Positions 1,523 through 21,832 of a DNA stretch of 30,099 nucleotides are shown piece by piece (the stretch's first letter is position 1; the number at the start of each line of letters is the position of its first letter). Source of the stretch: Clostridia bacterium (GTDB lineage Bacteria > Bacillota_A > Clostridia > Christensenellales > CAG-138); the NCBI GenBank assembly GCA_017394605.1, contig JAFPXU010000120.1, forward strand, positions 1-30,099. Reading direction: 5' to 3'. The notes under the pieces were generated by a model. That model was not told where the DNA came from and made no database searches. It saw only the letters and a list, made by a program, of their open reading frames with translations. The translations under genes were made by a program, and so were the position numbers.

Positions 1523-1837
1523 TTATGTGTCGCGGGCAGCGTTCGCTGTTTCGACCGCTATCGTTCCGGTTCTTTCAAGCAGTTCCCGGTTATCGTCCAG
1601 CAGATGATCGATCCCGTCTTCCGACAATACGCCGCACAGAAGATCTTCCGGAAGCTCGTTCCGCTCGGACGCTTCGAAGTCCTCTTTCCATTCGTCGCCG
1701 GTATAATATGCTTCCAGCTCCGATATCTTCTGCTGTGCGCAGATAAACGCGTCGAGCGCTTCGCCGTATCGCTTCAATACCGACGCAGACTCATTCAGAA
1801 GGTTCTCATAGTACTGGATTCTATTGATCCGATTCAT
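1523..1837 (-). CDS. DUF4298 domain protein
   Basis: A 104-residue acidic, helical protein. It matches the DUF4298 pattern as I know it: a helical MNRINRIQYYENLLNES start, a central ELEAYYTGDEWKEDFEA segment and a C-terminal LLCGVLSEDGIDHLLDDN segment. The family has no established biochemical role. The start is the ATG at 1835-1837, which overlaps the stop of the channel gene as ATGA and has a GGCGGG-type site in front. A longer frame to 1867 exists but would begin well inside the upstream gene. Translational coupling to the channel gene suggests it works with that protein, perhaps as a small cytoplasmic partner. This is inference. There is no membrane segment or signal peptide. Confidence 0.8.
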   Translation of the reverse strand: MNRINRIQYYENLLNESASVLKRYGEALDAFICAQQKISELEAYYTGDEWKEDFEASERNELPEDLLCGVLSEDGIDHLLDDNRELLERTGTIAVETANAARDT

Positions 1838-3396
1838 GATTCGCCCGCCTCGTTTTTTTGTTCCCATTCAGCAAGTCTGCCCAGCATTTCCCATGCGTAG
1901 GCGTCTTTCTTTCTTTCCGACTCCGTCAGCATGCTGTACGGCATGATCTGCGGATGAAGCCTGAGCGCATTGTTCCGTACGGGGTCCCGGCGCCAGTTGT
2001 ACATCTGATAAAAACGCATCCATCTCCTGTGCTCCATTTCCTGAAGGATGTCGGCCTGCGTACCGTACAGTTCCAGAAACCGCTCGTACGCAGCCCTGCA
2101 GTCCTCGCGGGTCAGTTCCGTCAGGTCTTTCCTGTTCAGCAGATACCTGGCCTTCACGATCAGATGATCCGCCGCAGCGATGTTTGCCTGGCGCAGGAAC
2201 GGCGTAAGATCCCTCCATTCGACAGGCTGAGAGGCGCCCTCGTTGTAGATATCGTTGAGAAGGACAGCTCGCCGGTTCACCTCATCCTTCATCACGAACT
2301 CGGGCGTGATGCTCTTTTCCCGGTTACCGAACGAATCGATTCCGGGAACCGGATCCGAAAGCCGCACATGTACCGAGCCAGTACTGCAGAACCAGCTGCG
2401 GAGTTTCTCAAATGCGTCGACATTATCCGTGTCGTCATCGAAGGATAAGATGATGCGGTCAGCACGGCTGATCACGTCCCTCGCGCAGGTCCATTCTTCC
2501 GGATGGAAAACGAGGGTGTCCTCGTTCGGATCGCTTCCGTCCAGCGCGCGCACGATTTCCGTGTGAAGCGTTGCGAATCCCTCGCTGTCATCGAACACAT
2601 GATATTCCGCCAAGCGGCCGGGCTCGAACACGTTGGTCATCAGCGCCCGTTCCAGAAGGGCACTTCCGGCGTCCCCACACCCGATGAGCACAACGACGCT
2701 TTCATCTTTCTTCAGGGGGTGTTCCTTCCAGTACTGTCGGCTTACTGCCTCCCTGGGGCTGAACAGCTGCATGCACGGAGCCAGATGCTCCGCGTTAAGA
2801 TCTGCCATGCAGTAACTTGCAAGTTCCCGCTCCGCCGCGTCCATAGCTTCCGTATAGTTTTCCCACGGATCGGGCCTCACGCAGAATACGGAGAGTCCCT
2901 CCGTTCCGCCGCGCATCTTTATGAGCCCGGCAGAATCGAAGTTCATGCGGACCACATTCCCTCCGTCCACATATCCCTGTTTCTCTTCCGGAAAGATCAG
3001 AAGGCATTCCGGATCATCGTCGGACAGTGCCCGCGCAAGTGCGGCGGCGTCCTCGCTTTCAAAGGAAAAAGCGTACCACCGGCGGTTCCTGCCCAACCGC
3101 AGGCGAAGCCTCGGGATGAACATCCCGCCGATCAACCTGAGCCCGACGCCGATAATGGCGGTCAAAACGCCGAGGCTGCACAGAGCAAAGATCAGGCCGA
3201 GCACCCTGCCCAATCCGGTAACCGGAGAAAGATCGCCGTATCCAACGGTCGTCAGCGTAATCAGGGAGTACCACAGCGCGTCGCCGACGTTCTTAATCGT
3301 AGCGTTCGGCGCGCCGGATTCCGCAAGAAGCAGAAGTCCGAGTATCACGATATATATGACCAGCGCGGTCAGGATCAATCGGACGTTTTTCTTCAT
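1834..3396 (-). CDS. Two-TM potassium channel with TrkA-N-like and RyR-like cytoplasmic domains
   Basis: A 520-residue membrane protein. Residues 8-25 and about 64-90 are membrane helices flanking a pore loop with the canonical potassium filter TTVGYGD at 49-55. A cytoplasmic region follows. A nucleotide-binding Rossmann motif GCGDAG sits at 239-244, typical of TrkA-N/RCK domains that gate channels with NAD(H) or other nucleotides. The C-terminus (about 385-505) matches the ryanodine-receptor RyR repeat pattern: EHRRWMRFYQMYNW at 455-468, then LHPQIMPYSML at 480-490 and a conserved Asp at 499. The gene begins with ATG overlapping the upstream gene's stop (ATGA at 3393-3396) and ends overlapping the DUF4298 start. 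The likely role is a ligand-gated potassium channel in the plasma membrane. The ligand is unknown. RyR assignment is by pattern only. Confidence 0.88.
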   Translation of the reverse strand: MKKNVRLILTALVIYIVILGLLLLAESGAPNATIKNVGDALWYSLITLTTVGYGDLSPVTGLGRVLGLIFALCSLGVLTAIIGVGLRLIGGMFIPRLRLRLGRNRRWYAFSFESEDAAALARALSDDDPECLLIFPEEKQGYVDGGNVVRMNFDSAGLIKMRGGTEGLSVFCVRPDPWENYTEAMDAAERELASYCMADLNAEHLAPCMQLFSPREAVSRQYWKEHPLKKDESVVVLIGCGDAGSALLERALMTNVFEPGRLAEYHVFDDSEGFATLHTEIVRALDGSDPNEDTLVFHPEEWTCARDVISRADRIILSFDDDTDNVDAFEKLRSWFCSTGSVHVRLSDPVPGIDSFGNREKSITPEFVMKDEVNRRAVLLNDIYNEGASQPVEWRDLTPFLRQANIAAADHLIVKARYLLNRKDLTELTREDCRAAYERFLELYGTQADILQEMEHRRWMRFYQMYNWRRDPVRNNALRLHPQIMPYSMLTESERKKDAYAWEMLGRLAEWEQKNEAGES

Positions 3397-5264
3397 CTGT
3401 CAGACTCCTCGCCCGCCCGCAGAAGTTTCGGGAGAGCCAGCACATTGTTGGTATCGTACTGCTTATAATCCACGCTGCGCCCCGTTACGGCGCTAACCTT
3501 GAGAGATAGCGCGTCCAGCTCATCCCAGGAGATGAGGCACGCATGGGTGCGCGCAGCGGTATCCCTCGCGATCCGGACGGTGGGCGGAATGCCTTCCTCC
3601 TGGCAGCGGCGCCACTCGGCGGCGTTGGCTTCAAATTCCTCGTCCGACATGGTACGGTAGCCGTTTGCAAAATGAAAAGCGTTCCAGCGGAGATGCTCCG
3701 TCTTTCCCAGGTTTTCCAGCATCTTTTCCGAAGGATGCCAGTTTCCCTCGAGCATTTCCTCCCTGCTGCTTCCGGAAGCCCGGATAAAAGCCGGCAGGAA
3801 CTCTGCCGACGCGCGGGAGGACATCTTGCTGAAGCTGTCACACGCCACCCATTTTTCCCAGTCGCATTTTTCTGAGGTATCGTATACCGAATTGATGATG
3901 ATGGCATTCCGGTCCGCGTTTTCAGCGGAAAGAAACGCCTGCGAGTAGATACCCATTGTCAGGATCGGACTTCCCACCCGCTCCTGATAATACACTCCCG
4001 TATCTCCGCAGCGAACCACGGCGATGTTTTCCGCGCCGCGCCGCTGCAGATACAGCATGAGATTATCGGAGATCTCCCGGTTGTTTTCATCGTCCCCGGT
4101 GCATACCGCAATCAGTTTCAGCGAAGAAAGCCTCTGCTGAATGAAATCATAAAAATCGGAACTCCGCGCGTCCGCCTGAACGCTGCGGATCTCGTACTTG
4201 TTCAGAAGTTCCGGGCTGTCGGCTTTGATATATCCCGCCTCGGCGGAATACGACGGCGAGAAGACCGTTGCCCTGAAGCAGCTTCCCGAAAACTGGGCGT
4301 TCATCACAAGCTGTTTCAGCGCTGCCTGGCCGTGAGAACCGAATCCCACGATAACACATTCGTAATCCTCCATCGCCATACCGTCCCCGTCAAAGGAAAC
4401 GGACTCCCATGGCGGACACAGTCGGATCAGTGCCCTCGCGGTCAGATCGCTCGAGTCATATACGCTGACATAGCCGAATCCGTACTGCTCCTGCGAAACC
4501 TGAAGCATGGAAGTGATGATGTCCTCCGCTCCCGGAAGCGTGACGCGGGTATTCTCCGCCGGGATGCCCAGCTGCTCCAGGGATTCCTTCAGGCGCATCG
4601 CGAAAAACAGATCCCGGTCGGAGTCCGCGTCGATGGCGTAGACCGTAAGCGTGCGGTTGCCCAGATGAAGCCTGCGAATGGTCCTGTCGTCGCATGCCAC
4701 GGCAGAAGGGCCGATCAGTGCGGACATTCCCATTGCGTTCAGGTCATTCACCGTTATATTGGATGCGTTGTCCGAGATGAAAACCACGGAGCTCTTTCCG
4801 GTAGCAAGGCACTCCTGACCGAGAGCGATGCTTCTGTCATTGATGCCGTAGATCAGCGTCAGATCCCCGCGGCGTGAGAGAAGAAAGCTGAGATGGCGCA
4901 GGGCTTCCGCCCCGAGGGTCTTCATTGCGGCGCTCGCGGTGGAGAAAAAGGCAAGTGTATGGATCAGCCAGAATCCGACAAGACCGGCCGTGCCGGAAAC
5001 AGGCCACGTGCCGCTGATCGTCGCAAGTTCGTTGACACCAACGAACATGCGGAATATGAACACAGGCGTTCGGATCGTGGTCAGAAGCAGGTTCCCGGAC
5101 ACTTCGTAATATCCGATTCCGTAATAAAACAGGCCGCCCACCACGGTTATGATCATGGACACGACCACCAGCTTGGAAAACAAGGCAGGCTTGAGCGTCA
5201 TGGTGAGCAATACTGCCAGAATGATGGCGCCGCCCAGCAGCACCGGCGCTAGGTAAAGGGTCAT
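3393..5264 (-). CDS. Multi-TM protein with two Rossmann-like domains and a RyR-like domain
   Basis: A 623-residue relative of the downstream channel protein. It has about three to four hydrophobic segments within residues 4-115, but no TVGYG filter. A first degenerate Rossmann region starts around 134 (LTLIYGINDRS). A second has a clean GFGSHG loop at 307-312. The C-terminal RyR-like region shows EHLRWNAFHFANGY at 523-536 and HACLISWDEL at 574-583, the same arrangement as in the neighbour. It starts at ATG 5264 with AAGGAG six bases upstream, and has its own promoter in the gap before it. It is probably a regulatory or heteromeric partner of the filter-bearing channel, since the two are translationally coupled. 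Transport activity of its own is not supported by a visible motif. Confidence 0.82.
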   Translation of the reverse strand: MTLYLAPVLLGGAIILAVLLTMTLKPALFSKLVVVSMIITVVGGLFYYGIGYYEVSGNLLLTTIRTPVFIFRMFVGVNELATISGTWPVSGTAGLVGFWLIHTLAFFSTASAAMKTLGAEALRHLSFLLSRRGDLTLIYGINDRSIALGQECLATGKSSVVFISDNASNITVNDLNAMGMSALIGPSAVACDDRTIRRLHLGNRTLTVYAIDADSDRDLFFAMRLKESLEQLGIPAENTRVTLPGAEDIITSMLQVSQEQYGFGYVSVYDSSDLTARALIRLCPPWESVSFDGDGMAMEDYECVIVGFGSHGQAALKQLVMNAQFSGSCFRATVFSPSYSAEAGYIKADSPELLNKYEIRSVQADARSSDFYDFIQQRLSSLKLIAVCTGDDENNREISDNLMLYLQRRGAENIAVVRCGDTGVYYQERVGSPILTMGIYSQAFLSAENADRNAIIINSVYDTSEKCDWEKWVACDSFSKMSSRASAEFLPAFIRASGSSREEMLEGNWHPSEKMLENLGKTEHLRWNAFHFANGYRTMSDEEFEANAAEWRRCQEEGIPPTVRIARDTAARTHACLISWDELDALSLKVSAVTGRSVDYKQYDTNNVLALPKLLRAGEESDR

Positions 5265-5336
5265 ATCTGTCTCCTTGAAAAAAGGACGTTTATCGTTTGA
5301 GACGTTCGGATCTTATCCGTCCGTCTGTTTAAACTG

Positions 5337-5365
5337 ATCATAGAGGAATCGTTCCCGGAAATCAA
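5337..5365 (-). promoter_or_regulatory. Sigma-A-type promoter for the channel/DUF4298 genes
   Basis: On the minus strand a TTGATT box (5360-5365) lies 17 bases from a TATGAT box (5337-5342). The roughly 70-base leader that follows contains a small hairpin, cggat-ctt-atccg at 5307-5319. No terminator was seen between the TIR-TPR gene and this promoter, so read-through is also possible. Confidence 0.6.
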
Positions 5366-5432
5366 TCTGAAAAGCCGTCGGGATCATACCTCTTTTTCTG
5401 ACATAAACTCACGGGATGAAAACGGTACGCGT

Positions 5433-7493
5433 TCACAAAAGACCGATCCTCCTGAGGAGATCCGCCTTGTCTCCGAGCGGCATACCGGCGCGTTCCTGCG
5501 CGTCGAGATCCCTGCGGATCATCTCGACCTGTCCCTCGCCGAGAGATGCGACCGAAGTAAACAGCATTTCCGCGTCCTCCTCGTACCCACAGTAAAGGCA
5601 TGCGTATGCGAGGACCAGATCCACGAAAGCATTATCCGGTTGAAGCTGGTATGCCTCATATGCGGCGTCAAAAGCCCCGTTGAAATCCCGCTCGTGAATC
5701 AGTTTGAAGTAGGAATCCCATGCGTGGTACTGCGCCTGATCAAATTCCCCGAGTCCTTCCAACGCAGATCTGTACACCTTAAGGCCTTCTTCAAAATACT
5801 CTCTGGATCGGTCGTAGTCGGCCAATCTAAAAGTGTTTTCCCCGAGATTGAGCATGTACATCGCATAGTACGAGCTGTCAGAAATAGATCCCGTCTGCAC
5901 AGCAAGAGATTTCATAATACTCGACGCACGAATAAAAAGCTTATCTGCCCCCGCATAATCCTCATGAGTACTGTGGCTCATTGCAAAGTTATTATAGAGG
6001 TCCGCCAGATCACGCTGATACGAGGTGTTTTCCTTATCCTGTGCAAGCAGTTCCGCTTCTTCGATCGCGACAGTATAAACCTCATCTGCCTCGCTGAATT
6101 TACCAGCGTCGGTCAATACAACCGCAAGCATGCTCATGCACTGCACTGCCCACGCCCTGTTCTGAAGGGAATTGTCCGCATCCAGCAGCTTTTCACAGTA
6201 ATCGCATGCAGCCCGCAGATGAGACTCCGCCTCAGAAAACCTACCCGTGCGGTACAGCAGCACACCATAATTCTGGTGGACCCGTGAAGCGGTCTCATAA
6301 TTCATGCCTCCCGCATTGTGCTCTAGCATGCTGATAGATAGATCGAAATACTCAGCCGCTTTTTCACTGTCACCCGAATCGGTCGCATTGGCACCTGCGT
6401 TCCGATAAAAATCTGCAAGCAGTTCAGGATCTCCACCGTATGCTGCCTGTCTTTCAATCGCGGTCTGATATGCTCCCGATGCCTCCACATAACGGCCAGA
6501 AGCATGGTACAGATTACCTAGATTATTGTATGCCGAAGCAAGCTTTTCGCCGCTTCCCTCCGTGCCCCGCTCCAAGAGATTTTCATAACTCTCTATGGCC
6601 GTCTTCTGCGCTGAAACGGCATCCTCATAATGTCCGAGCACCGCTCCGGCATTGGCAAGCTTTTCGTAATTCGCCGCAGCCTCGTTCTCCGCCGCGTCAC
6701 GATTCAAGGACATCCGCAGAATGGAGTTGATATCCTCCGTGTTGCGCGTGAGGATATCTGCGATGCGGCTGTAGGCTCCGGGTATGTTGGTCAGACGGTC
6801 GGGAAGCGAATAGGTCAGTTCGTTTAGAATGCGCATGGATGCCGCTTCGCGCTTCTGCGCGGTATCACGGTAGTCACGCGCAAGATGCATGAGGCCGAGG
6901 GAAACGCCCGCCACGGCGGCGAATGCTGCGATTCCCGCTGCAACCTTCGCGGCAAATCGGCGGTTCTTCCGGAGTTTGTGCTCTCTGAGCAGCTCCGCCT
7001 CCGTGCATCCCGCGATCTCCGATATGGCGCGCAACAGTTCCGTCTCGGCTTTCGCCATCATCTTTTTGACGTTGTTTCCGGGCGTCCGGATATCCATGAT
7101 ACGCCCCTCAAGATCGGGGACTTTTTTCAGGGAAGCAGGGAAAGACCGTTCGGGATCGCCGGAGATCAGAAGCGGATAGATATGTTCCGCCCTCCCGAGT
7201 TCGATAAATGTCGCGACTTCGCGGTCGACCCACTCCGAACTCGGCGTATCAGTCGAGCAGACAATAATCAGGCAGTTGGTCGAGCGTAGCGCCTGATCGA
7301 TCGTGTCGGACAGGATCCTGCTGACGGACAGCTCCTCCGTATCCCGGAAGGCGCGCTGCACATCCACGCACCCCTGATCCCGAAGCGGTTTCGGCACACG
7401 GTAGCTCTCGACCAGATTGAAACATTTCTGGGTTATCTCGCCGTCAAGCGGCTTATGCCGGTAGCTGAAGAAGACGTCATAGGAATAACTCAT
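5433..7493 (-). CDS. TIR domain-TM-TPR protein
   Basis: A 686-residue protein. Residues 4-110 form a TIR domain: YDVFFSYRHKPLDGE at the start, then VCSTDTPSSEWVDREV. Trp88 and Glu92 in the WxxxE arrangement match the catalytic Glu region of NAD-cleaving TIR enzymes. A membrane helix (about 181-203) follows. From about 265 to the end there are roughly eight to nine tetratricopeptide repeats with the usual Gly/Tyr/Ala spacing, for example EKLASAYNNLGNLYHASGRY. TIR domains of this kind hydrolyse or cyclise NAD. TPRs bind protein partners. Because there is one TM helix, TIR and TPR should lie on opposite sides of the membrane unless the helix is not spanning, so topology is worth testing. ATG at 7493 overlaps the stop of the TIR-like gene (ATGA). 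A sensor-effector role is inferred. Confidence 0.88.
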   Translation of the reverse strand: MSYSYDVFFSYRHKPLDGEITQKCFNLVESYRVPKPLRDQGCVDVQRAFRDTEELSVSRILSDTIDQALRSTNCLIIVCSTDTPSSEWVDREVATFIELGRAEHIYPLLISGDPERSFPASLKKVPDLEGRIMDIRTPGNNVKKMMAKAETELLRAISEIAGCTEAELLREHKLRKNRRFAAKVAAGIAAFAAVAGVSLGLMHLARDYRDTAQKREAASMRILNELTYSLPDRLTNIPGAYSRIADILTRNTEDINSILRMSLNRDAAENEAAANYEKLANAGAVLGHYEDAVSAQKTAIESYENLLERGTEGSGEKLASAYNNLGNLYHASGRYVEASGAYQTAIERQAAYGGDPELLADFYRNAGANATDSGDSEKAAEYFDLSISMLEHNAGGMNYETASRVHQNYGVLLYRTGRFSEAESHLRAACDYCEKLLDADNSLQNRAWAVQCMSMLAVVLTDAGKFSEADEVYTVAIEEAELLAQDKENTSYQRDLADLYNNFAMSHSTHEDYAGADKLFIRASSIMKSLAVQTGSISDSSYYAMYMLNLGENTFRLADYDRSREYFEEGLKVYRSALEGLGEFDQAQYHAWDSYFKLIHERDFNGAFDAAYEAYQLQPDNAFVDLVLAYACLYCGYEEDAEMLFTSVASLGEGQVEMIRRDLDAQERAGMPLGDKADLLRRIGLL

Positions 7494-8413
7494 GCGCCGC
7501 CTCCCTGTTCCGCATCACCGAGCAGCCCGCTCAACCCGAGTTCTTCTAGCTCCGTCCGTGCGTTCGCGATGGCTTCATCTATATACTGAAGCGCCTGTTC
7601 GTCCTCCGCAAAGGAAGCGGGAAGTTCTTCAATGGTCCGCTTCGCGATGGAAATGCTCAGATCGGTCTGCTGTTCCGCGATCTCCCCTTCCGCCTTCGCG
7701 ATGAGACCGAGACGCAGAAATATCCCTGCGGCAGCAAGGCATACAGCGCCGGCAATGCTCAGCGCTATGGCTGCAGCCCGTCTTCTGCGCGCCCTGTGCC
7801 TCTGTTCCAGGTCGTCCGGATGCAGCCCGAGGACAGACGCAGAAATACGAACCGTTTCATACCGGAGCGCCTCCCGGCGTCTCCTCTCGGTGGCGCCGCG
7901 CAGGTCTGCCGCGACCGGTTCGATGGTTTCGGTGCGCTCGACCACGCTCATATCCGGAAGGATGTGCTGCACGGTAACCGTTTCGATAAAGCTTGGGGGA
8001 AATGAATCGATCGGCTCACCTTCCGCGATGACGGCAATGATATCCTCTTTGCCGTGATTCTCGCGGAAGCAGTCCAGTCTTTCAAGAATGACCGGATTAT
8101 TTTTGGTCGCGGGAGAACAGATCAGCACAAGAAAGCGGGATCTCTCAAGGATCCCGCGCCGCCCTGTATCCAGGGGTTCTTCTTTGCAGTCGTATAGAAG
8201 CCGTCTGTAATCCATCGCCGGATCCGACAGTTTTGTCTTCGGCGGAAGCCTGTATCCGCGGATGCTTTCGCCAAGCTTTCGTGCAGTCGGTTCGTCCGAT
8301 CTGGTTGACAGAATGCAGATATCGTATTCTTCCAGAGGATCCACCTCCGTTTCACTCGGTTTGACCGGTTCCGTCAGGCGGTCAGATTTCAACGATCTTC
8401 TCCAGTGCTTCAT
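7490..8413 (-). CDS. TIR-like membrane-anchored protein, probably catalytically degenerate
   Basis: A 307-residue protein. Residues 30-140 resemble the TIR domain of the next gene: YDICILSTRSDEPTARKLGE, then LVLICSPATKNNPVILERLDCF. In the segment that holds Trp and catalytic Glu in the neighbour, this protein has no Trp, and its Glu111 is shifted by one position, so NAD cleavage may be lost or altered. A basic stretch (RRRRAAA region, about 207-214) precedes a TM helix at about 214-234. A charged C-terminal tail of about 70 residues follows. Its start at ATG 8413 lies 32 bases inside the end of the secreted-protein gene, and its stop overlaps the TIR-TPR start, so three genes are translated in a chain. 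It may be a scaffold or regulatory subunit for the active TIR protein, which is inference. Confidence 0.75.
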   Translation of the reverse strand: MKHWRRSLKSDRLTEPVKPSETEVDPLEEYDICILSTRSDEPTARKLGESIRGYRLPPKTKLSDPAMDYRRLLYDCKEEPLDTGRRGILERSRFLVLICSPATKNNPVILERLDCFRENHGKEDIIAVIAEGEPIDSFPPSFIETVTVQHILPDMSVVERTETIEPVAADLRGATERRRREALRYETVRISASVLGLHPDDLEQRHRARRRRAAAIALSIAGAVCLAAAGIFLRLGLIAKAEGEIAEQQTDLSISIAKRTIEELPASFAEDEQALQYIDEAIANARTELEELGLSGLLGDAEQGGGA

Positions 8414-11400
8414 AGAATTCCGGTGAGAACTCTACACCGTCAAAGTCAAACGCCACAAGGGTGAAATCTCCGAGCATGTCCGTATCGAAGCTCAGCTCCG
8501 ATTTCAGACGAGAATAAGAGACTCTGAAAGCTTTTAGTGTATTATTCGCATCACGAAAAACAGCATACACTTTTTGAGCTGCTCCTATAGGTGATAGTTC
8601 CCATGGAATGACGACTTTTACATGGCCGCCTACCTCATTGAGCGTTTTCTCCCCCTCAGTAGCGTGAAGAACGTACTGTTCTCCGACGGTGATCTGCTCA
8701 ACCCAGAAAGAAGAATTTGTGTTTTCGCCAGTATGAATGGTAGCGGTTTCCGTGCTATCGTTGGAAGTATCGCCCATGTTCCCACCGTTTCCGTTTCCGT
8801 TGTCGCCGTTTCCGTTTCCGTTGTCGCCGTTTCCGTTTCCGTTGTCGCCGTTTCCGTCTCCGTTGTCGCCGTTTCCGTCTCCGTTGTCGCTATTACTCGA
8901 GGAATTATTTCCTTTTTTGCCAAGAATTCCGCTTCCGGTAAATGTCGTGTTCGTACGAGTCGCAGGGGACTCCGGTTCTACTGTAGCGGTAGCTCCGCGA
9001 AGAACAACTCGTATAGCCATTACACCGTCCATTCCATCCTCATTGATTTGAACCCTTTCGCCGGTATTATAGTTGACGATTCGAAATACTTCCCCATTAC
9101 TAACTTGATATTCTGTAAAGGAGATATCGCCGTTTGCGTCCATACGGAGAACCTGTACATATGGTAAAATTCCATCTTCACCTGTTCCAACTCCAAGCTC
9201 GGATTTATATGCGTCGATGATTTCGAGAAGGCCGCCGCCGTCGCTCATGGGAATAGTCAATTCTAAACTTGAATCATAGCCTGCGGTAATCGATGTATTA
9301 GTCCCTGTATCCTTGATTTCTATAGTGGAAGACATGTTGCTTTTTCCGTAATGCTCATCCAGATACACGCCGGAAACAGGGATCGTATCCCCAGAATTAT
9401 GCACGGGAGTCATGTTATCCGGAACGATGTGAAGCAATGCAAGATTCTCTTCCAATATTACCTCTTCCGATGTCCCAGTATAGTTATATACAATAGCACC
9501 GCTCATCTCATCGATCGAAGTCTCGTCTAAAGTCAGTCCTTCCGCAAGAATAAAAATACCCCAGTCCAATTTGATAACACCGGAACGCTGTATGTTCCCG
9601 GTAATCGTGACCGGATACCTTGAATCATAGACGCGAAGAGAGATATCGGTCCCATCTATGACACTCGCGATATCTATAGTTTCACCGTTCGGATCCCCCC
9701 GGAGAATGATAACGCAGAAGGCAGCTGTCAGATTGGATACCTCAGCATGACCTTTTTCAAGATGCACGGTGCTGTTCTTGATGTTTAGCCCCGTATAGGT
9801 TCCGGATCCGTTCAGATAGAAATGGTCTGCCACAAGCATTATTTCGCAATCCGTAACAGCTTCAGGATCCGAGAATACTATGGTACTGACTTCAATATGC
9901 CCGTCTCCTCTAAGCTTAGCACCAGGTTCGATGGTAATAGTTCCAGCACGGTTGTTATAATCTTGTCCCCAACGTAGGCCAAATACTGCGCCGCCCAAAC
10001 CTGACTCTTCCAACGTGAGCGTTCCGCCATCGGTTACAACAAGACTAGGATGACGGCAACCGTCATGAGAATCCGTGCCTCCAAGGCTTTTGAGATTCTG
10101 CAGTATGATAGCGCCGCTACGATGAGTAGACTCATTAACATCGACCACCAATTCCACGCCTTCGCCAATCGTCAGCGTACCAACATGTTCATAAACATTA
10201 TTCCAATTTGAACATTTATAATCATGGTGTGTGCCGTGATAATAATTTACCGTGACATTGCCTTCCTCGTCTTCAATCACTTCGGCACCGGTACCGCACA
10301 AAAGCAAAGCCTCGTCAGCAGGAATAACAAATCTGTATCCCAAGGCATTCTGCAGATGATTCTTATCAAGATAATAATCCTCGTCCAGAATGCCGAAAAC
10401 ACCTTCATTTGAAAGAACATAACTCTCGGATTCTTCGTCCCAGATAAAAACAGCAGCACCCACACCCTCGGCACCAACTGTTTCGTCATTCAGAATCCCT
10501 TCATATCCTATACCCTCCAGAGGCTTTATCACCAGGTCTAAGTCGTTATCAAAATAATCGATCAACAGAATTCCCGTTCCGTAAACGGTGGCTGTTCCGT
10601 TGCCAGAAATGGAATTAACATGGTTGAGACCAGCCACATAAACTGTAATATTCCCCTCGGACTCAAGCTCTTCCGTTCCGTCATGATCAACCATAATATA
10701 CTCGTCATTCCCCAAATCCCAGAATGATGTATCGCCCTCTGCATCGGGATCCGAAACGGGATCGACGTCTCCTCCATCCTCTGGATCCGTTCCGTCGGTG
10801 GCAGGCATAGTCGCAGGATCCGTCTGACCGTTATCGGTCAAATTGCCGTCCGTTGCACCCAGGATATCGTTTGAGCCGGAAATCCCGGCATCCGCTCCGA
10901 ACGCGGTCATGAATGCGCCTGTGAGGATGATATTCGAGTCTTCGGAAGGATTCGTCGTCACGACCGTGTTCCCATCGCCGCCGTCAGAAGAGCCGATTGT
11001 TAAAGCAGAATCCCCGGCACCGTTATCGCAAGTGTTGATCGCAGTCACTGTGGAAGCAGTATCGCCGTTGTCGGACGAATCTGTCGTCACGGCCGGGACA
11101 ACATCACTGCTATCGTTGGGATCCGTTATTACAGTTGGGACAACATCACTGCTATCGTTGGGATCCGTTGTTACGGTCGGAACAACGTCGCCGTTGCCGT
11201 TCGGATCCGTCACTGCTGCCGGTGCGGTATCGCCATTATCGGATGGGTCCGTCGTCACGGTCGAAACCGTATCGCCATTGTCGTTAAGATCAGTTGCTCC
11301 GGGGACGGTATCAGTACCGTCGGGTGAACCGGCCGTTGCGGAAGAACCCGCGGCCGGCATGGTGGCGAATTCGTTGGAAGGCGTCTGAACCTCGTCTCCG

Positions 11401-11630
11401 TCGTCTGCGGATCCGTCCGAGGACTGCTGAGTCTCTTCCACTGGAACATCGTTTTCCGACACGGGAGCAGCAGCATCAGGAGACGCGGTCTCGGAAGCGG
11501 GCGCAATAAACTGCGGCGGCGTTTCAGGAATCTGTCCTTCGTCAGTCTCCGCGTAAGCCTTCCCGCTGAGCGCTACGGTAAGCAATGCGGCAAATGCGAT
11601 ACCTCTGAGTTTTTTTACCCATTTTTTCAT
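8382..11630 (-). CDS. Large secreted repeat-containing protein, probable beta-helix surface protein
   Basis: A 1082-residue protein from the ATG at 11628-11630, which has GGAGG eight bases upstream. The extra upstream codons in the frame start with TTG and are not needed. Residues 1-27 form a signal peptide with a lysine-rich start and an AYA cleavage site. A Thr/Asp/Asn-rich stalk with 14-residue repeats (about 104-200) follows. Next comes a long region (about 320-700) of alternating hydrophobic and Gly/Thr/Asn residues like a right-handed beta-helix (for example GTLTIGEGVELVVDVN). A Gly-Asn-Asp seven-residue repeat linker at about 914-955 precedes a compact C-terminal domain. No LPXTG, SLH or other anchor motif is visible, so it may be released or held non-covalently. 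Being translationally linked to two TIR genes is unusual and may mean it is the extracellular part of the same system. Confidence 0.82.
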   Translation of the reverse strand: MKKWVKKLRGIAFAALLTVALSGKAYAETDEGQIPETPPQFIAPASETASPDAAAPVSENDVPVEETQQSSDGSADDGDEVQTPSNEFATMPAAGSSATAGSPDGTDTVPGATDLNDNGDTVSTVTTDPSDNGDTAPAAVTDPNGNGDVVPTVTTDPNDSSDVVPTVITDPNDSSDVVPAVTTDSSDNGDTASTVTAINTCDNGAGDSALTIGSSDGGDGNTVVTTNPSEDSNIILTGAFMTAFGADAGISGSNDILGATDGNLTDNGQTDPATMPATDGTDPEDGGDVDPVSDPDAEGDTSFWDLGNDEYIMVDHDGTEELESEGNITVYVAGLNHVNSISGNGTATVYGTGILLIDYFDNDLDLVIKPLEGIGYEGILNDETVGAEGVGAAVFIWDEESESYVLSNEGVFGILDEDYYLDKNHLQNALGYRFVIPADEALLLCGTGAEVIEDEEGNVTVNYYHGTHHDYKCSNWNNVYEHVGTLTIGEGVELVVDVNESTHRSGAIILQNLKSLGGTDSHDGCRHPSLVVTDGGTLTLEESGLGGAVFGLRWGQDYNNRAGTITIEPGAKLRGDGHIEVSTIVFSDPEAVTDCEIMLVADHFYLNGSGTYTGLNIKNSTVHLEKGHAEVSNLTAAFCVIILRGDPNGETIDIASVIDGTDISLRVYDSRYPVTITGNIQRSGVIKLDWGIFILAEGLTLDETSIDEMSGAIVYNYTGTSEEVILEENLALLHIVPDNMTPVHNSGDTIPVSGVYLDEHYGKSNMSSTIEIKDTGTNTSITAGYDSSLELTIPMSDGGGLLEIIDAYKSELGVGTGEDGILPYVQVLRMDANGDISFTEYQVSNGEVFRIVNYNTGERVQINEDGMDGVMAIRVVLRGATATVEPESPATRTNTTFTGSGILGKKGNNSSSNSDNGDGNGDNGDGNGDNGNGNGDNGNGNGDNGNGNGGNMGDTSNDSTETATIHTGENTNSSFWVEQITVGEQYVLHATEGEKTLNEVGGHVKVVIPWELSPIGAAQKVYAVFRDANNTLKAFRVSYSRLKSELSFDTDMLGDFTLVAFDFDGVEFSPEFYEALEKIVEI
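8784..8889. repeat. 21-bp tandem repeat encoding a Gly/Asn/Asp linker
   Basis: About five near-identical copies of a 21-base unit (ttgtcgccgtttccgtttccg on the plus strand, differing by single t/c changes) encode DNGNGNG or DNGDGNG heptapeptides. It lies inside the secreted-protein gene and keeps frame. It is prone to copy-number change. Confidence 0.9.
11031..11321. repeat. 42-bp tandem repeat encoding a 14-residue stalk unit
   Basis: About six to seven copies of a 42-base unit encode units such as DSSDVVPTVITDPN and DNGDTVSTVTTDPS. Two central copies, starting at 11095 and 11137, are almost identical over more than 30 bases, which points to recent duplication. The outer copies have diverged. 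Confidence 0.88.
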
Positions 11631-11648
11631 ATCTGATTCCTCCGTCAA

Positions 11649-12006: not shown

Positions 12007-14637
12007 TCAGTCTCTCGGATTCCTAATCGCTGCCTGGGCTGCTGCCAGTCTCGCGATCGGTACACGGAACGGCGAGCAGGAAACATAATTCAGGCCGATC
12101 TGATGGCAGAATTCGATGGAGGAAGGATCTCCGCCGTGTTCGCCGCAGATTCCGAGTTTGATGTCGGGTCTCGTCTTGCGTCCGAGCTCCGCAGCAAGCT
12201 TCATCAGCCTTCCGACGCCCTCCTGGTCGACACGGGCGAACGGATCGAACTCGTATATCCTCTTCTTGTAATAATCGTCAAGGAACTTGCCTGCGTCGTC
12301 GCGGGACAGACCGAACGTCATCTGGGACAGGTCGTTCGTACCGAACGAGAAGAATTTGGCCTGCTCGGCGATCTTGTCCGCCGTCAGCGCGGCGCGCGGT
12401 ACTTCGATCATGGTTCCGACAACGTACGGGATCTCCACGTTGCGCTCTGTCATGACTTCCTTAGCCGTACGGTCGATGACGTCCTTAACGAATTCGAGCT
12501 CCTTGACGTCGCCTACCAACGGGACCATGATCTCCGGAACGACGGAGATGCCGGTCTCCTGCCTTGTCTCGATTGCCGCCTCAATCACGGCGCGGGTCTG
12601 CATTTCGGCGATTTCCGGATAGGTGATGGAAAGCCTGCAGCCGCGGTGTCCGAGCATCGGGTTCATTTCGCGGAGGCTGGTAACCGTCAGCTTCAGCTCT
12701 TCGAACGTCAGGCCCATCTCTTTGGCAAGCGCCTTGATATCGTTATCCTCGGAAGGAAGGAACTCATGGAGCGGCGGATCCAGGAAACGGATCGTAACCG
12801 GTCTGCTGCCCATTGCCTTATAGATTCCCTTGAAATCGGATCTCTGCATCGGGAGGAGTTTGGAAAGAGCTCTGCGCCTGCTGCTCTCATCCTTGGAAAC
12901 GATCATCTCGCGGACTGCCGGAATTCTGTTCTCGTCAAAGAACATATGCTCCGTTCTGCAGAGGCCGATGCCTTCCGCACCGAATCCGACGGCGGTTGCA
13001 GCGTCGTGGGGATTGTCGGCGTTGGTCCGGACTTTCAGTTTCCTCACCTCGTCCGCCCACTGCATGATCGTGGCGAAATTGCCGGATACCTGCGCTTCGA
13101 TCGTCGGAAGAGCCTCGCCGTACACGCTGCCCGTGCTGCCGTCCAGAGAGATCCAGTCTCCCTCGTTGAAGGAAAGACCGCTGGCGGTGGTGAACTTCCT
13201 GCTCTTCTCCAGAATCATGACTTCGGAGCATCCGGAAACGCAGCAGGTTCCCATGCCGCGCGCGACAACCGCAGCATGAGAGGTCATGCCGCCGCGTGCC
13301 GTCAGAACGCCCTCCGCGGCATACATGCCTTCGATGTCCTCCGGAGAAGTCTCAAGACGGACAAGGACGACCTTTTCGCCGCGCTTGGAAGCGTCGATAC
13401 AGTCCGCAGCGTTGAAGTACACTCTGCCGCAGGCAGCGCCCGGGGACGCCGGAAGGCCCTTGGCGATCGGCTTGGCTTTCTTCAGCGCGTTCGGTTCGAA
13501 CGTCGGATGAAGCAGCGCGTCCAGAGACTTCGGCTCGATCTTGAGGAGTGCCTCTTCCTTGGTGATGAGACCTTCGTTCACGAGGTCAACGGCGATCTTC
13601 AGCGCAGCAGACGCGGTGCGCTTGCCATTCCTTGTCTGAAGCATGAACAGCTTTCCGCGCTCGATCGTGAATTCCATATCCTGCATGTCGCGGTAATGCT
13701 GCTCAAGCGTGTTCGCAATGCGGACAAACTGCTTATAGACGGCGGGCTGTGACTGCTGCAGCTCGGAGATCTGAGACGGCGTGCGGATTCCCGCGACGAC
13801 GTCCTCGCCCTGCGCGTTCATCAGGAATTCACCGTACAGCGCTTTTTCGCCGGTGGAAGGATTCCTTGTGAAAGCAACACCGGTTCCGCAGTCGTTTCCC
13901 ATGTTTCCGAAGACCATGGACTGAACGTTGACGGCGGTACCCCAGCTGTACGGAATGTCGTTCATTCTGCGGTATACGTCCGCGCGAGGGTTATCCCAGC
14001 TGCGGAAAACGGCCTTGACGGCTTCGATCAGCTGCTCTCTCGGATCCTGCGGGAATTCCGTTCCCTTCTCCTGCCGGTAGATGTCCTTGAACTGCTCCGT
14101 GATGAGCTTCAAGTTCTCGGCGTTCAGTTCCGTATCGAGCTTGCAGTTGTTCTCCTTTTTGACTTTGTCGAAAACCGCGTCGAATTTCAGTTTGGAAATC
14201 TCCATGACAACGTCGGAAAACATCATGATGAATCTTCTGTAGCTGTCATAGGCGAATCTCTCGTTGTTCGTCAGTTTCGCGAGGCCGACGACTGTCTGAT
14301 CGTTCAGACCGAGGTTGAGGATCGTGTCCATCATGCCCGGCATGGAAGCGCGCGCTCCCGATCTGACGGAAACGAGGAACGGGTTCTCGGGATCGCCGAA
14401 TTTCTTTCCGGCCTGCTGCTCGATAACGTCCAGCGCCTCATAAATCTGTCCCAGAATCTCATCGTTGATTTTGCGGCCGTCCTCATAATACTGGGTGCAA
14501 GCCTCCGTCGATACGGTGAAACCGTAAGGAACGGGCAGACCGAGGTTGGTCATCTCGGCAAGGTTTGCGCCTTTTCCTCCGAGGATGTCACGCATGTTGG
14601 CGTTACCCTCTTTAAACAGATAAACATACTTCTTCAT
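12007..14637 (-). CDS. ppdK: Pyruvate, phosphate dikinase
   Basis: An 876-residue enzyme that interconverts pyruvate, ATP and phosphate with phosphoenolpyruvate, AMP and pyrophosphate in the cytoplasm. The N-terminal ATP-grasp domain starts with GGKGANLAEMTNLGLPVP at 20-37. The swivelling phosphohistidine domain contains GGMTSHAAVVARGMG with the carrier His454. The C-terminal PEP/pyruvate TIM barrel ends with LGICGEHGGDP, where Cys831 is the expected catalytic cysteine, and VSCSPFRVPIARLAAAQA. Length and residue numbers match the clostridial enzyme almost exactly. The start is ATG 14637. AAGGAG lies rather far upstream (about 14 bases). It is the last gene of the phoH-recO cluster, 58 bases after recO, and is followed by a strong terminator. 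No PPDK regulatory kinase gene lies nearby. Confidence 0.98.
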   Translation of the reverse strand: MKKYVYLFKEGNANMRDILGGKGANLAEMTNLGLPVPYGFTVSTEACTQYYEDGRKINDEILGQIYEALDVIEQQAGKKFGDPENPFLVSVRSGARASMPGMMDTILNLGLNDQTVVGLAKLTNNERFAYDSYRRFIMMFSDVVMEISKLKFDAVFDKVKKENNCKLDTELNAENLKLITEQFKDIYRQEKGTEFPQDPREQLIEAVKAVFRSWDNPRADVYRRMNDIPYSWGTAVNVQSMVFGNMGNDCGTGVAFTRNPSTGEKALYGEFLMNAQGEDVVAGIRTPSQISELQQSQPAVYKQFVRIANTLEQHYRDMQDMEFTIERGKLFMLQTRNGKRTASAALKIAVDLVNEGLITKEEALLKIEPKSLDALLHPTFEPNALKKAKPIAKGLPASPGAACGRVYFNAADCIDASKRGEKVVLVRLETSPEDIEGMYAAEGVLTARGGMTSHAAVVARGMGTCCVSGCSEVMILEKSRKFTTASGLSFNEGDWISLDGSTGSVYGEALPTIEAQVSGNFATIMQWADEVRKLKVRTNADNPHDAATAVGFGAEGIGLCRTEHMFFDENRIPAVREMIVSKDESSRRRALSKLLPMQRSDFKGIYKAMGSRPVTIRFLDPPLHEFLPSEDNDIKALAKEMGLTFEELKLTVTSLREMNPMLGHRGCRLSITYPEIAEMQTRAVIEAAIETRQETGISVVPEIMVPLVGDVKELEFVKDVIDRTAKEVMTERNVEIPYVVGTMIEVPRAALTADKIAEQAKFFSFGTNDLSQMTFGLSRDDAGKFLDDYYKKRIYEFDPFARVDQEGVGRLMKLAAELGRKTRPDIKLGICGEHGGDPSSIEFCHQIGLNYVSCSPFRVPIARLAAAQAAIRNPRD

Positions 14638-21626: not shown

Positions 21627-21715
21627 GGAGAGATGTCCGAGTGGTTTATGGAGCTGGTCTTGAAAACCAGTGATGCTGAAAGGCACCGGGGGTTCGAATC
21701 CCTCTCTCTCCGCCA
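21627..21715 (+). tRNA. tRNA-Ser (anticodon TGA)
   Basis: The acceptor stem ggagaga/tctctcc is perfect, the discriminator base is G and CCA is encoded at 21713-21715. The anticodon stem ctggt/accag encloses TGA at 21661-21663. The long variable arm and the ggttcgaatcc T-arm are typical of serine tRNAs. It reads UCA and related serine codons. Confidence 0.97.
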
Positions 21716-21739
21716 GCATCTTCCTGACAGACTTATATT

Positions 21740-21832
21740 GGAGAAGTACCCAAGTGGCTATAAGGGGCTCCCCTGCTAAGGGAGTAGGCTGGGTTGACCG
21801 GCGCCAGGGTTCAAATCCCTGCTTCTCCGCCA
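21740..21832 (+). tRNA. tRNA-Ser (anticodon GCT)
   Basis: The acceptor stem ggagaag/cttctcc, discriminator G and encoded CCA at 21830-21832 are present. The anticodon stem ctccc/gggag encloses GCT at 21775-21777. A long variable arm and T-arm ggttcaaatcc follow. It reads AGC and AGU codons and is 24 bases downstream of the first tRNA, so they share a transcript. Confidence 0.97.

Follow-up and report, generated by a model that had tools for sequence, protein, structure and literature searches.

A gene cassette of gut bacteria suggests that membrane TIR enzymes are coupled to a RyR-domain potassium channel by a small-molecule signal

The response of RyR domains to cyclic ADP-ribose is a disputed point for the channels of animals. 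A 2026 preprint that treats phage proteins (PMC13232231) describes the phage protein RyDEP (RyR/R12), which binds cyclic ADP-ribose signals with four residues, His, Trp, His, and Asp. Cutting of the signals is reported there for the founding phage protein alone; six of eight homologues tested bound the signals, and no cutting was seen with any of the others. The R12 domains of animals are described there as binding adenine-containing ligands. Our literature searches listed no work on bacteria in which RyR domains are brought together with TIR genes or potassium channels, and earlier work on nucleotide-centred conflict and TIR-based systems may anticipate part of what is presented here. We describe such genes in a 30,099-nucleotide stretch of DNA from a Clostridia bacterium (contig JAFPXU010000120.1 of assembly GCA_017394605.1), the whole of which is called the window below. 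Six packed minus-strand genes, all present as open reading frames (ORFs) where a preliminary description of the sequence had placed them, follow one another along the direction of transcription as SEC, TIRL, TIR, TRK, CHAN, and a DUF4298 gene (Table 1). Each gene overlaps the next by 4 to 34 bp, apart from TIR and TRK, which are separated by 168 bp. The cassette consists of two modules, SEC-TIRL-TIR and TRK-CHAN. On balance, we lean towards reading them as a membrane signalling system in which the receptor-like TIR protein would make an ADP-ribose-type nucleotide and the RyR domains of the second module would sense it, gating a flux of potassium.

CHAN is assigned as an RCK-type potassium channel, because its sequence contains a selectivity filter in a two-transmembrane pore and its structure model has the fold of a tandem RCK gating ring. 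The pore is recognized by Pfam (Ion_trans_2, E = 6.2e-13), and the filter T[VA]GYGD is present in 62/62 CHAN ORFs from the loci described below. The AlphaFold2 model of CHAN has a predicted local distance difference test score (pLDDT) of 85.7, and a fold search matches it to GsuK. The model of TRK (pLDDT 87.7) is matched to the gating rings of GsuK and CASTOR/DMI1. The Pfam match of TRK to TrkA_N (E = 1.3e-3, 19.5 bits) is below the curated cut-off of 23.8; the family is matched at E ≤ 1 in 19 of 22 aligned TRK members, at best with 3.6e-6. The potassium selectivity filter is absent from all 81 TRK sequences. The two membrane proteins with TrkA-N-like regions, one of them with a potassium filter, that the preliminary description had put forward are borne out, by fold as well.

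TRK and CHAN are assigned as homologous RCK/TrkA-N membrane proteins that both end in RyR-type domains. The domain of CHAN is matched by Pfam PF02026 with an E value of 1.5e-4 and 22.3 bits, below the curated 27.4. The same family is found at E ≤ 0.01 in 21/21 aligned CHAN members (best 2.6e-7), and many relatives carry it in precomputed annotation. When compared with ryanodine receptor chains, the region gives a best sequence-profile E value of 1.8e-24. The residues H456, W459, H481, and D498 of CHAN have the spacing of the RyDEP ligand residues, with offsets of 0, +3, +25, and +42. This spacing is exact in 60 of the 62 CHAN ORFs; the remaining two are L021, which has Asn for Asp, and L056, which is cut by the end of its contig. 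The likeness to RyR proposed earlier for this region thus holds for both the sequence profile and the spacing of the nucleotide-contacting residues. The RyR-like end of TRK contains a longer insert. Its His and Trp are invariant in 31/31 sequences, and the second His and the Asp are at least 90% conserved. It has no Pfam match, and its comparison with an RyR1 chimera (E = 1.6e-4) has no single stretch that passes, but it aligns with the domain of CHAN with an hhalign E value of 4.2e-10. The RyR fold was not among the fold matches of the whole models of CHAN and TRK, because the RCK and pore domains filled the match lists and the searches barely covered the RyR part. Since the positions of the RyDEP catalytic His and Asp are kept in CHAN and largely in TRK, the RyR domains might instead be enzymes or sponges that remove the product of TIR, with TRK and CHAN damping or ending the signal. 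We regard this as quite unlikely, because cutting was confined to the founding phage protein while six of the eight tested homologues bound the signals, according to PMC13232231, and because fusion of the domain to an RCK gating ring and a pore suggests gating.

The TRK profile retrieved 225 relatives in genome contigs, of which the best 80 were kept and, together with the window, make up 81 loci. Separate profiles were used for TRK, CHAN, TIR, and TIRL; in iterative models TRK and CHAN were not told apart, nor were TIR and TIRL. CHAN adjoins TRK in 62 of the 81 loci, on the same strand in 62/62 and with a gap of 60 bp or less in 61/62, and 10 of the 19 loci without an adjoining CHAN have it elsewhere in the genome. 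A TIR gene is located within 8 kb in 36/81 loci according to the model (that of L026 is a 112-residue fragment), and L039, recognized by Pfam, brings the number to 37. In the 35 loci that are flanked on each side by 6 kb or more, CHAN is present 24 times and TIR 19 times. The gene order varies, from SEC-TIRL-TIR-TRK-CHAN in the window to TRK-CHAN-SEC-TIRL-TIR in many other loci. Some loci have quite different TIR proteins, which contain TIR_2 in 14/14 scanned and in some cases beta-propeller, PQQ, MORN, RHS, or Sel1 regions; the catalytic-type Glu is kept in all 14, and several of their genes overlap or touch the channel gene. Together with the loci from the RyR scan described below, these counts place the gene set in other genomes, as the preliminary description had anticipated. 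Because the sets are seen again in many genomes, they are not the result of chance.

Two further neighbours were considered as TIR genes and not counted: that of L075 encodes leucine-rich repeats according to Pfam and has its start cut off, and that of L080 matched nothing. The TIR-like ORF of L153, read by eye only, was not counted either. The DUF4298 gene, previously listed as a component, was found in 2/81 loci only (the window and L001), with a two-sequence model that could miss distant copies, and is probably not part of the system.

In bacteria, RyR domains are found in association with TIR proteins, and in one case fused to one. When 197 genomes from a single order were scanned with PF02026, 16 RyR genomes were identified, 14 of them over the Pfam cut-off, with RyR proteins mostly far from CHAN; the same genomes were scanned for TIR_2. 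TIR is present in 14/16 RyR genomes versus 42/181 others (P = 4.5e-7), or in 13/15 without the seed (P = 1.4e-6). In 7/15 non-seed genomes (L165, L170, L172, L173, L175, L176, and L177), TIR and RyR are either encoded no more than 10 kb apart or joined in a single protein, where 0.026 would be expected per locus (P = 4e-8). The P values of the scan are optimistic, because related genomes are not independent draws. In L165, the RyR, TIR, and TrkA_N genes stand in a row. In L173, a genome that came from the unbiased RyR scan, a single protein (8796-10805, minus strand) is a TIR-RyR fusion with matches of 8.8e-12 to TIR_2 and 4.2e-18 to RyR. It is unlikely, though worth considering, that adenine nucleotides or NAD(H) are what the RyR and RCK domains sense and that TIR acts only through depletion of NAD+. 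Structures with ADP and with NAD exist for GsuK, the closest match by fold, and the ligands reported for animal R12 domains in PMC13232231 contain adenine; however, sensing of this kind leaves unexplained the specific linkage of TIR with RyR and the L173 fusion, which has no RCK domain.

Stand-alone bacterial RyR proteins of about 95-100 residues, the size of the phage RyDEP domain, are encoded in L165 (8919-9203), L166 (5110-5400), and L168 (8946-9245); those of L165 and L168 have Thr at the position of the phosphate-binding His of RyDEP. A different arrangement of RyR and TIR is seen in L172 (4351-11945, minus strand), where a gene for a 954-residue AAA-type protein with two RyR domains is followed by two TIR genes with DUF5050.

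The modules also occur together when they are not linked. With strict TIRL defined as a score over 300 bits, TIRL is missing from the TRK locus in 51 genomes (though a different TIR is present at a few of these loci), and 13 of the 51 contain strict TIRL elsewhere, each time beside a TIR-TPR gene. TRK was found in 5/150 and 7/250 genomes in samples of two families and in 1/197 genomes of the order sample. Strict TIRL is present in three genomes of the 150 sample and one of the 250 sample, all of them TRK-positive. In the pooled samples this amounts to 4/12 TRK genomes versus 0/388 others (P = 4.7e-7), and to 2/10 when the two seeds are removed (P = 5.7e-4). CHAN occurs in 7/150 genomes, including all five with TRK. 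In the second family, relatives of TIR (E ≤ 1e-12) are present in 6/7 TRK genomes versus 28/243 others (P = 2.7e-5, or 1e-3 without G225 and G246). These counts tie TIRL to TRK and show that members of the wider TIR family occur in the absence of TRK as well. That plain potassium homeostasis genes stand beside TIR genes by chance or in shared islands, as could be suggested by some genomes in which TRK is close to uvrA and CHAN is surrounded by housekeeping genes, with no TIR, is highly improbable in view of the co-occurrence and RyR-scan statistics, the overlapping TIR and channel genes, and the TIR-RyR fusion.

The module SEC-TIRL-TIR resembles a receptor. TIR is matched by the Pfam family ThsB_TIR (E = 6.5e-8, 33.3 bits versus a cut-off of 21.2) and by TPR_12 (3.7e-22). 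Its Glu92, which we take to be the catalytic position from the WxxxE pattern of TIR NADases, is invariant in the sequences of 17/17 TIR-TPR proteins. TIRL has no Pfam family at E ≤ 10 and aligns with the TIR profile with an hhalign E value of 2.4e-20. The position of the catalytic Glu is occupied by Arg or Lys in 16/16 TIRL sequences, so TIRL is classified as a pseudo-TIR that is predicted to be catalytically dead. Among solved structures, sequence searches gave no relatives of the TIR domain at E ≤ 0.001 and one chance-level match for TIRL. Hydropathy places one transmembrane helix of TIRL at residues 215-233, and with the helix of TIR this agrees with the earlier claim of two membrane-anchored TIR or TIR-like proteins. 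A single hydrophobic helix is located after the TIR domain in 19/19 TIR-TPR proteins, 17/18 TIRL proteins, and 16/17 other TIRs, where the exception is a 112-residue fragment; none was found in L039. Because most of the proteins, though not all, have more positive charge on the TIR side of the helix, the TIR domain is predicted to be inside the cell and the repeats outside; the orientation is not clear in several of them.

SEC is 1088 residues long when counted from the TTG start. An apparent signal peptide and, at the C terminus, a conserved domain were read by eye, and the ORF and this peptide are in keeping with the secreted protein of the preliminary description. The window protein has no Pfam family at E ≤ 10; four of six relatives have no Pfam match at E ≤ 0.01, and two have weak matches to Cornifin or Collagen under the cut-off. 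Relatives of SEC adjoin TIRL in 14/18 TIRL loci of the first set and in 13/15 later ones, several of which are cut by contig ends. SEC is present in two or three tandem diverged copies in L013 (3383-9676), L018 (13411-18673), and L006 (12988-18416).

The proposal starts from what is observed, namely the association of the genes, the assignment of the channel and of its RCK and RyR domains, and the conserved residues of the ligand pocket and the TIR active site. From these we infer the topology, the enzyme product, the ligand, the direction of gating, a TRK-CHAN heteromer, and the trigger. SEC, TIRL, and TIR would constitute a receptor-like module, with TIR inside the cell, one transmembrane helix, a large repeat domain outside, and a pseudo-TIR and a secreted partner. 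A trigger, which may be a surface cue, stress, or phage, would cause TIR to cut NAD+ and release an ADP-ribose-type nucleotide. TRK and CHAN would be the reader, in which binding of the nucleotide to the RyR domains makes the RCK gating ring open or close the potassium channel. The resulting change in membrane potential or potassium level would act on growth. A channel that senses the product of TIR is the best explanation because of the recurrent company of RyR and TIR, the fusion, and the intact cyclic ADP-ribose-type pocket on an RCK channel. The full circuit, in which a transmembrane TIR receptor with a pseudo-TIR partner would make a messenger of the cyclic ADP-ribose type and a ryanodine-domain potassium channel would be gated by it, is put forward tentatively, as somewhat short of an even chance.

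Several observations weigh against the proposed signalling system. TRK is beside TIR in L008, L039, L054, and L071, yet those genomes have no CHAN at E ≤ 1e-20. In one genome group TRK and CHAN are apart among ordinary genes with no TIR adjoining, and a settled arrangement without TIR is seen in L014, L020, and L040 (about 9.9-14.9 kb), where TRK is by a gene that looks uvrA-like by eye and CHAN is elsewhere among ordinary genes. A potassium filter was found in 0/9 distant RyR proteins checked, and by our count several distant RyR domains are without the phosphate-binding second His. The pore and the full pocket are therefore not constant. TIR is not near the RyR gene in 8/15 non-seed RyR genomes, and relatives of TIR occur without TRK in 28/243 genomes. 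The co-occurrence counts are weakened by the incompleteness of metagenome-assembled genomes and by shared ancestry.

The same circuit could serve anti-phage abortive infection, with a phage as the trigger and suicidal potassium loss or growth arrest as the output. This is possible, with a probability of about one third in our judgement. The patchy distribution of TRK over the three genome samples, the varied repeat domains on the TIR proteins, and the TIR nucleotides and phage RyR anti-defence proteins known from phage conflict (PMC13232231) speak for it. However, PADLOC applied to 85 flank proteins of 18 TIR-bearing loci found one non-specific family, GlgB, with two members, and no integrase or transposase is among the 25 families listed out of 63 Pfam families for these proteins. 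A defence-island context was thus not found with PADLOC and Pfam, in a comparison that had no control set and included some ORFs that are possibly spurious antisense frames; the flanks of TIR-bearing loci consist of housekeeping genes. Profiles of CHAN and TIRL gave pattern matches and no relatives in viral contigs, and TRK had none in phage records. The secreted partner and the predicted outside domains suggest a surface cue. The interpretation given in the preliminary description is retained for the joint occurrence of the genes, the RyR sequence match, and the RCK potassium channel, and is not supported for membership of DUF4298 or, given the flanks and the absence of viral copies, for defence as the purpose.

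Table 1. Positions of the cassette genes and their main features in the window
Feature	Position (strand)	Description	Basis
SEC	8382..11630 (-)	Large secreted protein; first gene of SEC-TIRL-TIR module	ORF, ATG start; TTG at 11648 possible
TIRL	7490..8413 (-)	307 residues; membrane-anchored, predicted pseudo-TIR	ORF, hhalign, transmembrane helix
TIR	5433..7493 (-)	686 residues; TIR domain, one transmembrane helix, TPR domain	ORF, Pfam
TIR domain of TIR	7014..7493 (-)	Residues 1-160, predicted cytosolic	
Single transmembrane helix of TIR	6888..6944 (-)	Residues 184-202	Hydropathy; net charge +6 before, +1 after
TRK	3393..5264 (-)	623 residues; pore-less, channel-like; tandem RCK/TrkA-N-type and C-terminal RyR-type domain	
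RyR-type region of TRK	3405..3773 (-)	About residues 498-620	Profile comparison and conserved residues
CHAN	1834..3396 (-)	520 residues; two-transmembrane pore, tandem RCK, C-terminal RyR domain	Pfam, AlphaFold2, fold matches
Potassium selectivity filter TVGYGD of CHAN	3232..3249 (-)	Residues 50-55	
RyR domain region of CHAN	1855..2109 (-)	Residues 430-514, with H456, W459, H481, D498	PF02026
DUF4298 gene	1523..1867 (-)	114 residues; overlaps end of CHAN	PF14131, 3.8e-20

The six-gene run is flanked by an ORF at 12007-14637, read by eye as pyruvate phosphate dikinase (ppdK), and by an exonuclease gene at 857-1390 (RNase_T, Pfam). A terminator-like site is located after ppdK at 11988-11967; the terminator scan is near chance (14 sites versus 9.7 expected), as is the promoter scan (11 versus 8.7 expected). 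TRK proteins with 97-99% identity exist, one of them from a Clostridia bacterium, and the closest genome locus to the window is L001, from a goat omasum Clostridia bacterium (83%). Two adjacent tRNA-Ser genes with anticodons TGA and GCT were identified by Rfam at 21627-21832. Positions 1-705 are AT-rich (39% GC in the first kilobase), and a plus-strand ORF that runs off the start of the window there has no Pfam match better than E 0.06.

Should a product of TIR bind to the RyR domain of CHAN, the cassette would offer a small, purifiable system in which to study if and how RyR domains respond to cyclic ADP-ribose. An ion-channel output would be added to TIR nucleotide signalling, and the TIR of Toll receptors and the cyclic ADP-ribose-ryanodine channel, which are known separately from animals, would be joined in one bacterial circuit. 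From the company of RyR and TIR, a function can be predicted for a domain family that has been little studied, and this company fits with the phage RyR proteins by which signals made by TIR are bound or cut.

The cassette shares with Thoeris a TIR gene of the ThsB_TIR Pfam family next to a gene for a domain of a kind that can bind ADP-ribose-type nucleotides, and a TIR subunit whose sequence keeps the catalytic Glu. In contrast to Thoeris, the TIRs are membrane anchored with repeat domains, and the reader is an RyR-RCK membrane protein or channel. A search of the six window proteins against the PADLOC 2023 catalogue found no ThsA-type effector, the matches being ThsB-like and generic weak ones to TIR; the cassette is therefore not Thoeris by its classical effector. 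With the Toll-like receptors of animals, whose signalling domain is a relative of TIR, the cassette would have the plan in common, namely a TIR predicted to be cytosolic, one transmembrane helix, and a repeat domain predicted to be outside, whereas the chain direction is opposite, the repeats are TPR or others, and the TIR is of the catalytic type; the likeness is an analogy, and homology of the plan is not claimed. CHAN has the two-transmembrane pore with TVGYGD and the tandem RCK domains of GsuK and other RCK-gated potassium channels, and differs from them in its C-terminal RyR domain and in the pore-less paralogue TRK encoded beside it. The His, Trp, His, and Asp of the PF02026 family and phage RyDEP recur in CHAN at the same offsets; unlike the phage protein, the bacterial domain is fused to RCK membrane proteins and encoded next to TIR genes. 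As in animal ryanodine receptors, an RyR-type regulatory domain is carried by an ion channel, but here the domain is present in a single copy and the channel is of the potassium RCK type instead of a calcium-release channel.

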